Positions 8,807 through 11,515 of a stretch of 50,851 nt of DNA are shown here, in pieces (position 1 is the stretch's first letter; the number at the start of each line of letters is the position of its first letter). This DNA comes from a virus: positions 1 to 50,851 of IMG/VR virus record IMGVR_UViG_3300004770_000019, one strand, 5' to 3'. The notes under the pieces are model-generated. The model did not search any database. It saw only the letters and a list, made by a program, of their open reading frames with translations, and was not told the DNA's origin. The position numbers and the translations under genes were made by a program.

Positions 8807-9067
8807 ATGGCAAATTTTCATCCTTTAGGTCAAAGAATTTTGGTGGAAGAAATTAAAGAAGCAGAACAAAAAGAGGGCTCAATAATCATACCAGATACAG
8901 TAGCGAAAATCTATAAAAAAGGCATTGTTCGTTATAAAAGCGATGAAGTATCAAAAGTATCGGTAGGTGATAAAATATTATTCCCATTTAATGTAGGTAA
9001 TCCATTAAACCAAGACGGAATAGATATGTTACTAATGGATGTTAATGCAGTAGACGCTATTATCTAA
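8807..9067 (+). CDS. GroES-like co-chaperonin
   Basis: 86 residues, close to the usual cpn10 length. The pattern is that of GroES: an N-terminal HPLGQRILVEE strand (compare the family's P-L-x-D-R-hhV), a mobile-loop region ending in GSIIIPDT (family GGIIIPD), then KGIVRY, VSVGDKILFPF (family VKVGDKVLh) and a C-terminal MLLMDVNAVDAII (family IhxExDILAhh). Phage GroES analogues replace or modify the host co-chaperonin so GroEL can fold the capsid protein. It has its own promoter and is followed by a larger paralogue-like gene. Confidence 0.85.
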   Translation: MANFHPLGQRILVEEIKEAEQKEGSIIIPDTVAKIYKKGIVRYKSDEVSKVSVGDKILFPFNVGNPLNQDGIDMLLMDVNAVDAII

Positions 9068-9083
9068 TCTAATTTAATATTTC

Positions 9084-9902
9084 ATGCAATCTGTAAATAG
9101 CGTATTGTTATCTATTGGTGAACCTTTACAAACATATATTGAAACAAATAATGGGTTTAAGTTGATTCTTGCAGGTCAAGAACACCGACACGAATGGAAT
9201 GTTTCAGTAAAAGGAAAGATAGTTTCACTACCAATAGACCACCCTTATAACAAATCATTAAAGGTTGGAGATACAGTATATTTCAGCTATTTCGTATGTG
9301 CAGATAGAAGTTTTGATTCAGATGCAGACTTTTTTAATCCCGAAATAAACCAAAACTATCTAAAGAAATTTTATGATGGTCATGGTAATTACATTCAAGT
9401 TATAGCTGTACCATCATTAATAGATAAACAATGGGTATGCACTTACATAGATAAATACGGTACATTTCAACATGGGATAAGCGGTACTGAAAGTGAAATG
9501 GAAAGGTGGCTATCCCAATTCAAATTTGGAAGTGTACAAAAATATAAATTTGAAAACCTAATAGAATTAGATGGTGAACAATATTGGAAATGCGACCCCG
9601 AATTTATATTTGCAAAAGAAGTAAATGGTAAACCAATAGCAATAGGTAAATATCTTCTTTTAGAACCATTAAAACAAACAATTTCAAGCCAAGAATTACT
9701 AAAATATAACATAGTAATACCCGAAGCATTTATTGAAACAACAGTCGCAGACAGGGCTATACTTTTAAGCGGTGGGAGTAAGCTAGGACTTAAAAAGGGA
9801 CAAACAGTAGGATTTAATAGTGCGTTTGTCCAAAAATATGATTTTGACAATGTCCCTTATACAATTCTAGAACAAGAACAAGTATTTGGGATTTGGGAAT
9901 AA
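9084..9902 (+). CDS. Putative double GroES-like-fold protein
   Basis: 272 residues. Two regions show cpn10-like strand order. The N-terminal one (about 1-75) has VNSVLLSIGEPL, VSVKGKIVSLP, LKVGDTVYFSY. The C-terminal one (about 180-272) has AIGKYLLLEPL, IVIPEA, ADRAILLSGG, LGLKKGQTVGFN and an ending like a cpn10 last strand. Position just 16 bases after the GroES gene supports a common chaperonin role. The sequence similarity is weak and the middle (about 80-175) is unassigned, so this is an inference from pattern, not a firm family assignment. The downstream small RNA promoter overlaps its 3' end. Confidence 0.5.
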   Translation: MQSVNSVLLSIGEPLQTYIETNNGFKLILAGQEHRHEWNVSVKGKIVSLPIDHPYNKSLKVGDTVYFSYFVCADRSFDSDADFFNPEINQNYLKKFYDGHGNYIQVIAVPSLIDKQWVCTYIDKYGTFQHGISGTESEMERWLSQFKFGSVQKYKFENLIELDGEQYWKCDPEFIFAKEVNGKPIAIGKYLLLEPLKQTISSQELLKYNIVIPEAFIETTVADRAILLSGGSKLGLKKGQTVGFNSAFVQKYDFDNVPYTILEQEQVFGIWE

Positions 9903-9915
9903 TTTACTATCTTTG
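9885..9915 (+). promoter_or_regulatory. Strong Bacteroidota-type promoter for a small RNA
   Basis: TTTG (9885-9888), 19 bases, TATCTTTG (9908-9915): both elements and the spacing match the Bacteroidota consensus. The expected start is at about 9920-9923, exactly at the first hairpin of the RNA candidate. It overlaps the end of the upstream gene. Confidence 0.65.
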
Positions 9916-9921
9916 AATAGC

Positions 9922-10013
9922 GTTTACTTAGCGAAGTCGCATCCGATAAGTGAACATATAAAGTTTCACAATTTAAAAAGCCTTAATAGATGCGACCTAT
10001 TGGGGCTTTTTTA
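9922..10013 (+). ncRNA. Candidate small RNA with a perfect loop-loop (kissing) complement
   Basis: Non-coding stretch from a strong promoter to a strong terminator, about 90 bases. Hairpin 1 pairs 9922-9930 with 9947-9955 (9 bp, one G-U) and exposes a 16-base loop (9931-9946). Hairpin 2 is the terminator, stem 9975-9989/9997-10011, with a 7-base loop ATGCGAC (9990-9996). The entire 7-base loop is the reverse complement of GTCGCAT at 9936-9942 in loop 1, so the loops can kiss within one molecule or between two. No coding frame of note lies inside. It is of no known family that I recognise. Confidence 0.6.
9975..10012 (+). terminator. Rho-independent terminator of the small RNA
   Basis: AAAAAGCCTTAATAG pairs with CTATTGGGGCTTTTT (15 bp including two G-U pairs), loop ATGCGAC, and the 3' arm runs straight into a T tract at 10007-10012. 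It separates the GroES-like genes from the HNH gene downstream. Confidence 0.75.
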
Positions 10014-10016
10014 TTT

Positions 10017-10847
10017 ATGAAAAAAGAATATAAAAACATTATCGGTACAAAATCAGGTAGACTATTAGCAATATCTGAAATACCAAGTAGTAAAGAAAAT
10101 AAAAAAATAAGAGTTAATTGTGTATGTGATTGCGGTAATAAATTAACTATTGATAGGTGTAATTTTCTATCTGAACATACTACATCTTGCGGTTGTTCAA
10201 GGGTTGGCGAAAATAATAATAAATTTGAAAACCTAATTGGTCAAAGATTTGGTAGGCTAGTTGTAGTAAGCAGAAATTTTTCTAAAAGTAAGACTGCTTG
10301 GAATTGTATATGCGATTGCGGTAAATGTAAATCAATTGTAGCTTCAAGCCTTAAAAATGGAATGACTAATTCATGCGGTTGTTATCAAAAAGAAAGAGTA
10401 TCGGAAGTATCTACTACTCATGGGAATACAAAAAATGCAAAAGATACAACAGAATATAAGTCATGGTGTGGGATGAAGTATAGATGTAGTAATAGTAAGG
10501 CTACAAAGTATAAAAACTACAAAGAGAAAGGAATTACTGTATGTGAAAGATGGGTAAATAGTTTTGAAAATTTCTTAGAAGATATGGGTAAAGCCCCAAC
10601 CCCAAAACATACATTAGACAGGATTAACCCAAATGGAAATTACGAACTAAGTAATTGCAGATGGGCAACACAACTACAACAACAAGGTAACCGAACCAAT
10701 AACCGATGGCTAGAATATGATGGTAAACGTATGATACTATCTGATTGGGGAAGGTTTTTAAACGTAAAACCTGAATATATTAGCTATAAAATAAGGAAAG
10801 GATTTAGTTTTGGAGAAATTTATCGAGAATTGTTAAAAAAATTGTAA
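10017..10847 (+). CDS. Free-standing HNH homing endonuclease-like protein
   Basis: 276 residues from the ATG at 10017. An in-frame ATG at 9990 lies in the loop of the terminator and would add nine residues, so it is not preferred. Two tandem zinc-finger-like repeats (about 4-57 and 78-126) each have GT-x-x-GRL or GQRFGRL, CxCDCG and SCGC. A central domain follows with SWCGMKYRC, KGITVCERW and LDRINPNGNYELSNCRWAT, the typical HNH/homing region, then a C-terminal helix-turn-helix-like segment (SDWGRFLNVKPEYISYKIRKGFS). These genes spread into phage genomes by homing. It sits between the chaperonin genes and the structural operon. Confidence 0.8.
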   Translation: MKKEYKNIIGTKSGRLLAISEIPSSKENKKIRVNCVCDCGNKLTIDRCNFLSEHTTSCGCSRVGENNNKFENLIGQRFGRLVVVSRNFSKSKTAWNCICDCGKCKSIVASSLKNGMTNSCGCYQKERVSEVSTTHGNTKNAKDTTEYKSWCGMKYRCSNSKATKYKNYKEKGITVCERWVNSFENFLEDMGKAPTPKHTLDRINPNGNYELSNCRWATQLQQQGNRTNNRWLEYDGKRMILSDWGRFLNVKPEYISYKIRKGFSFGEIYRELLKKL

Positions 10848-10867
10848 TTTAGAGCAAAATTTAAGTT

Positions 10868-11515
10868 TTGAGAAATATAAACGACCTTTATAATTTATGT
10901 GATTACATAGTGCGTAAAGAAAGGGGCAGCTTCGTTTCCGTAGATGAATTTACTCAATGTCTTAATTATGGGCAATTAGAAGCATATCAGCTATATTTTT
11001 CTGCTTATGGAGTTAATCAAACTATACACGATGCCCTTTTGCCATTTAAAGTAAGGACACAATTTACATCTGCATCAGATGGAACAGTTACTTATAATTC
11101 AAATTATCTTCATTTATTAGGTGGTGTATTTACTGTAACAGGTTCAACAGTTAATAAGGTTAGATTTATTTCACAAGATGAATTACCCGATGCTTTAACA
11201 GCTCAATTAAGGGCTGTTTCTACTTCTTCGCCCATAGCCGTAGATACTGCTAATGGATTTTACTTATACCCACAAGTACAACAAACAGGGTTTTATACTT
11301 ACATGAGATTACCTAATGCCCCTGTTTTAGCAGCTACTTATGGTGGTTCTGATGGAAGAACAGTAACTTATGACCCAACAAATAGTGTGCAATTAGAATT
11401 TTCAGATATTTATTGCAATAATATACTTTCAAGAGCATTGAAATTAATTGGTGTAAATATGGATGAAGAAGGAATTGAACAATTTGCCCAAAGTCAATCA
11501 CAACAATCTAATTAA
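10868..11515 (+). CDS. Virion structural protein (connector/adaptor type), 215 aa
   Basis: First gene of the rightward structural operon. The N-terminal helical part (INDLYNLCDYIVRKERGSFVSVDEFTQCLNYGQLEAYQLYFSAYG) is a pattern common in structural genes of Bacteroidota phages: short helices with V-x-x-EF-x-x-x-x-x-x-Q. The rest is beta-rich. The only start is TTG at 10868 or a rarer codon; an imperfect promoter-like AAGTTTTG overlaps it, so the true start is uncertain. Likely a head-tail joining or neck protein, from position upstream of the other adaptor genes. Confidence 0.6.
   Translation: MRNINDLYNLCDYIVRKERGSFVSVDEFTQCLNYGQLEAYQLYFSAYGVNQTIHDALLPFKVRTQFTSASDGTVTYNSNYLHLLGGVFTVTGSTVNKVRFISQDELPDALTAQLRAVSTSSPIAVDTANGFYLYPQVQQTGFYTYMRLPNAPVLAATYGGSDGRTVTYDPTNSVQLEFSDIYCNNILSRALKLIGVNMDEEGIEQFAQSQSQQSN

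Follow-up and report, generated by a model that had tools for sequence, protein, structure and literature searches.

In the ColE1 RNA I/RNA II pair a 7-nt hairpin loop is fully paired with its partner, and in the HIV-1 dimer site the pairing bases are flanked within the loop by two bases on the 5′ side and one on the 3′ side. Loop-loop contacts also decide termination in the antisense-controlled attenuators of pT181 and pIP501, at which a promoter, a leader hairpin, a terminator and the controlled gene follow one another. In T4-type phages, homing endonucleases are kept down by terminators and leader hairpins, according to a review on T4 (PMC2988022). Among pseudoknotted bacterial RNAs, the skipping-rope RNA was presented as an example in Rfam 14 (PMC7779021).

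We examined a 50,851-nt stretch of viral DNA (IMGVR_UViG_3300004770_000019), referred to here as the window, which covers a virus record of 50.8 kb with terminase and portal matching those of Flavobacterium and Cellulophaga podoviruses. On its plus strand, a Bacteroidota-type promoter string (TTTG-N19-TATCTTTG) was found at 9885..9915. The transcription start is predicted at 9920, rather than near 9921 as proposed in the initial annotation, because in Flavobacterium promoters position -5 is taken by the G of the -7 box (PMC6847099). At +3 relative to this start lies hairpin 1 (9922..9955, plus strand), with a 9-bp stem GTTTACTTA/TAAGTGAAC (arms 9922-9930/9947-9955) and the loop GCGAAGTCGCATCCGA (9931-9946), in which GTCGCAT (9936..9942) makes up the first kissing strand. 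A 19-nt linker (9956..9974), single-stranded in the predicted fold, leads to an intrinsic terminator (9975..10014, plus strand) with a 15-bp stem (9975-9989/9997-10011), a 7-nt loop and a U-rich tail. The second kissing strand, ATGCGAC (9990..9996), is the entire terminator loop and the reverse complement of GTCGCAT. Promoter, hairpin, terminator and the start codon of an HNH gene are all inside 130 bases.

The positions given in the initial annotation for the promoter, hairpin 1, the terminator and both loops all hold, as does the exact 7-base complement, and the match extends to 8 nt (GTCGCATC/GATGCGAC) if the closing G-C pair of the terminator opens. A chance match had been put below one in a thousand, which is the right order of magnitude for a single pair, the value being 2.8e-4 once the actual base composition is used. 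When many terminators are searched, permutation is the appropriate null; it yields about 0.42 to 0.5 chance cases among 150 to 590 strong terminators, where 4 to 6 were seen. The predicted fold of the module, two separate hairpins, has -27.1 kcal/mol (z = -4.4), and no shuffle was equally stable. As for the promoter, described before as a textbook case, the string is present, but in a genome this rich in AT it carries no significance on its own (2 found vs 0.78 expected); its distance of 6 nt to the stem is found again, to the nucleotide, in a second phage (L134).

The HNH endonuclease gene (phrog_374; 10017..10847, plus strand) starts 5 nt past the terminator stem. Together with the RNA module it occupies a segment (9903..10867, plus strand) between a co-chaperonin-like gene (9084-9902) and a virion structural gene that begins at 10868. 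The co-chaperonin-like gene is present in about 50 relatives that have no such segment; the junction was read in roughly 20 of them, and there this gene directly abuts the structural gene. As neither the RNA module nor the HNH gene is present in these and the flanking genes abut, we conclude from the sequences that the two are one inserted cassette. Like a leader-controlled phage homing endonuclease, the gene has an RNA structure with a terminator at its 5′ end and belongs to an insertion that is absent from relatives. The homing role of the protein is putative, from its phrog_374 membership and the insertion pattern. A profile scan of genome contigs with the HNH alignment returned no relative. 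Two tandem GroES-like genes (8807-9902) precede the structural genes in the window, at which the second is enlarged to 272 aa and conserved in all relatives fetched with it.

Only one relative with the same cassette was found, L003 (with L002 as its duplicate), in which the gene order is the same as in the window and the HNH protein is 45% identical. Its module, AAGCCAACA(GCGTAATTGCGCAACGA)TGTTGGTTT followed by a 13-nt linker and a terminator with the loop GCGCAAT, has the anatomy seen in the window, and the loop frame GCGnA...CGA is common to both. The HNH gene starts directly after the terminator here as well, and a recognisable promoter is absent. The arms used for counting pair changes were set by hand, because hairpin 1 is misplaced in the MAFFT alignment (A3). 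In stem 1, 7 of the 9 pairs are changed on both sides and all 9 are kept; in the terminator stem 7 of 15 are changed on both sides, again with all pairs kept. The loop-loop kiss is itself kept in 7 of 7 pairs, 4 of them changed on both sides. In the initial annotation, homologous loops that drift without staying complementary were named as refuting the idea, and here the loops have changed together instead; this covariation comes from one true homolog, L003. The chance of a full complement to the L003 terminator loop within its first loop is about 3e-4. As the match is kept with different bases in a related phage, we regard the module as a probable genuine RNA switch or clamp by which the HNH gene is kept in check.

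The same design was searched for with a script in all fetched loci, by asking of each strong terminator whether its loop complements that of a hairpin upstream of it. When the settings were kept fixed, 4 of 148 strong terminators passed vs 0.5 in loop permutations. The enlarged set gave 6 of 589 vs 0.42 expected from permuted loops, with a filter on G+C and stem that was chosen after the cases were known, and some thresholds were likewise set after the first cases. This filter was used because a relaxed search, in which loops were extended into the stem, returned mostly AT-rich noise (13 seen vs 7 expected). Apart from the window and L002/L003, the qualifying elements are in three phages. Phage G044 (L091/L134) has a 10-nt loop match, TGCTTCCGAC, and its L134 element lies between genes, with about 400 nt to the nearest one downstream; phage G045 (L240) has an 8-nt match, CTTCCCGG. 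L012 carries two kissing elements (at 1795 and 5126; CCACTAC and CTCTCAC), with 8-nt loops pairing over 7 nt, in different gene contexts, one of which precedes a lipoprotein-like gene. The search of HNH upstream regions added a 7-nt match in L015 (ATTGCCC/GGGCAAT) and a weak 6-nt match in L234 (G040). Loop sequences are unrelated among these independent phages, and the linkers (13 to 39 nt) are conserved neither in sequence nor in length.

A promoter ends just before hairpin 1 in five elements, namely those of the window, L134, L012 (both) and L015. In the window and L134 it is TTTG-N19-TAnnTTTG exactly 6 nt before the stem, in L012 (twice) and L015 a TTGACA-type promoter, and L240 lacks a recognisable one. 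No convincing element was detected in ten Bacteroidota phages (Panino, phi13:2, phi38:1, Gundel_1, elemoF, JQ, FCOV-F35, ctfjg026, crAss001 and lillamy). DNA searches with three elements gave no relative in 50,697 phage records; for the window RNA, phage records returned nothing or only terminator-like scraps. A profile scan of viral contigs with the small HNH of L240 found only itself. Tentatively, and with slightly less than even confidence, we propose a recurring, undescribed phage RNA class, in which the loop of a promoter-proximal hairpin kisses the loop of an intrinsic terminator and locks free-standing HNH genes in different host groups, the loops being free to change as long as they match.

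The HNH start lies 0 to about 20 nt after the terminator hairpin in 5 of the 8 elements, directly after it in the window, L003, L240 (G045) and L015 and about 20 nt after it in G040; in G044 and at both L012 elements no HNH gene is directly downstream. The HNH genes behind kissing elements belong to two different families, phrog_374-like and small HNH. In this phage set, 3 of 16 HNH genes have a strong terminator no more than 20 nt from their start codon, vs 25 of 2453 other ORFs (p = 7e-4). Kissing leaders were found in 4 of 85 HNH upstream regions vs 6 of 900 control ORFs (p = 0.007) and 5 of 1020 shuffles. The link of the kissing leader to HNH genes is thus likely but not proven from these sequence counts, because the enrichment is not significant once the window and its ortholog are removed (2 of 83, p = 0.14).

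Other structured RNAs were observed near HNH genes in the fetched loci. At L262 16074 (HNH gene of G033), a long terminator stem carries a 45-nt loop that holds TAATGTGATTTTTGAGCAA, complementary over about 17 bp to TTGCTCAAATTCACATTA further upstream, and this leader is possibly a pseudoknot variant of the kissing theme. At L237 9790 (HNH gene of G044), a terminator (AAGCC...GGCTT) lies directly before the HNH start and competes with a more stable upstream hairpin (GCTTAC/GTAAGC), which looks like a classical attenuator. Just upstream of the HNH gene of L302 (G053), the hairpin AACCTCCTTATG(AAAA)TGTAAGGAGGTT contains the Shine-Dalgarno sequence. The Rfam int-alpA RNA (RF02996) lies directly upstream of the HNH gene in L010 (2893-2959), and its core AGGGTnGCnCCCGAAAAG is shared by the region upstream of HNH in L007, with a score below the cut-off. 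L016 has two group I introns (RF00028; 2591-2929 and 5648-6044), one just before an HNH relative, and an abiF RNA (RF03085) is found in L015 (6458-6494, minus strand), at the same locus as the kissing leader.

For the window module, the reading to which we give about even weight is that of a leader of a mobile HNH cassette, an attenuator and insulator that is off by default and acts chiefly in cis. Transcription by the host polymerase would begin at about 9920 and hairpin 1 would fold at once, so that its loop could catch the emerging apical loop of the terminator over 7-8 bp. Such a kiss would clamp the terminator and both RNA ends, and transcription would stop at about 10012, ahead of the HNH gene, whose start codon is at 10017. 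The product would be a stable RNA of about 93 nt that begins and ends in a hairpin. Read-through from upstream late genes would meet the same terminator and a hairpin near the start codon, which would keep HNH low. The promoter string, both hairpins, their complementarity, its compensatory conservation and the joint insertion with HNH are present in the DNA; the kiss, its strengthening of termination and any opening signal are what we infer. The kiss might rescue a terminator whose 7-nt loop would otherwise be poor, the usual terminator loop being 4 nt according to the T4 review (PMC2988022), and it may also leave termination unchanged. No conserved antiterminator was found, and no mutually exclusive structure is obvious in the window or L003; a competing hairpin was seen in the leader of another HNH gene (G044).

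The initial annotation had left the choice between control of the HNH gene in cis and action in trans. A small phage RNA acting in trans, with its linker drawn taut by the kiss and offered single-stranded to a pairing target or a protein, and with the HNH gene as a mere neighbour, seems to us unlikely, if worth keeping in mind. Promoter, 5′ hairpin at +3 and terminator would indeed make a compact, stable RNA. The exact TTTG-N19-TAnnTTTG that the window and L134 share at a distance of six nt to the stem, the intergenic site of the L134 element and the differing gene contexts of the two L012 copies all suit a free RNA. However, five of the eight elements sit before an HNH start codon, their linkers are not conserved, the DNA searches of 50,697 phage records with three elements gave no relative, and the antisense search of the window gave no target better than chance and no convincing antisense site in the phage. 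The option in cis is favoured over a free small RNA, as the element precedes HNH starts in the window, L003, G045, L015 and G040. Kissing between molecules, giving dimers or chains of which the oligomer is active, or letting the terminated RNA act back on the nascent leader, appears improbable. Such pairing between molecules is known from the phi29 packaging RNA and from retroviral dimer sites. Both partners are on each RNA and could pair head-to-tail, and the 13-nt linker of L003 is by our estimate tight for an intramolecular kiss unless the terminator opens at its A-U base, whereas the intramolecular form, presumably favoured at low RNA concentration, is compatible with the linkers of 19 to 39 nt in other elements.

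An ordinary insulating terminator with a hairpin nearby, whose loop complement is chance or a by-product without function, is a little more improbable still. Strong terminators directly before HNH genes do exist without a kiss (L302), and chance kisses occur in AT-rich sequence; against this stand the four double changes that preserve the kiss in L003, the 10-nt and 8-nt kisses elsewhere, and the excess of elements over permutation. That the inverted repeat GTCGCAT...ATGCGAC is a DNA-level site recognised by the HNH protein or a repressor is very improbable in our view, even though I-TevI represses itself through an operator before its gene according to the T4 review (PMC2988022). From phage to phage the repeat sequences differ completely, and they coincide precisely with the loops of two further inverted repeats; an RNA fold is the only simple explanation of this arrangement. 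The default-off leader in cis is our preferred reading, at about even odds. If it is true, a terminator would be held by a tertiary loop-loop clamp within its own transcript, acting on selfish genes that need to stay quiet to be tolerated by the phage, and the module would be a simple test bed for tertiary contacts acting on termination. Sequence searches and standard covariance models would miss such a class, because the loops are free to drift together and pseudoknots are not scored.

The window RNA matches no Rfam 15 family at or above the gathering cut-off and gave weak chance matches only, in line with the initial annotation, which knew of no such family; no Rfam family covers the module. 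For the skipping-rope RNA (RF02924, gathering 36.7 bits), the window and the records of L003, L012, L015 and L091 gave nothing with E<=10, and no match coincided with the elements in 47 further records; a single 12.7-bit match in G045 is away from the kissing element. Its model has an outer closing stem, inner branches and conserved GAGG..GGAAAgGG and GAGAUG, whereas the window RNA consists of two separate hairpins. The int-alpA RNA (RF02996) is likewise a structured RNA, found in one copy upstream of an HNH relative (L010), but it differs from the window RNA in sequence and fold and has no match in the window.

The leaders of T4-type homing endonucleases (I-TevI, segB, mobE and seg43) are similar in that RNA structure at the start of a mobile endonuclease gene limits expression, an effect that we propose for the window; they differ in that their hairpins mostly hide the ribosome-binding site or are simple terminators, and the accessible part of the T4 review (PMC2988022) describes no loop-loop complement in them. 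In the literature on kissing terminators and on HNH leaders with kissing loops, of which few subscription papers were covered, we found no description of this design. The attenuators of pT181 and pIP501 receive the partner loop from a separate antisense RNA, and none was seen here. The two loops of the window module resemble those of ColE1 RNA I/RNA II and of the HIV-1 dimer site, but in those pairs the contact is between two molecules, whereas here both partners are in one RNA.
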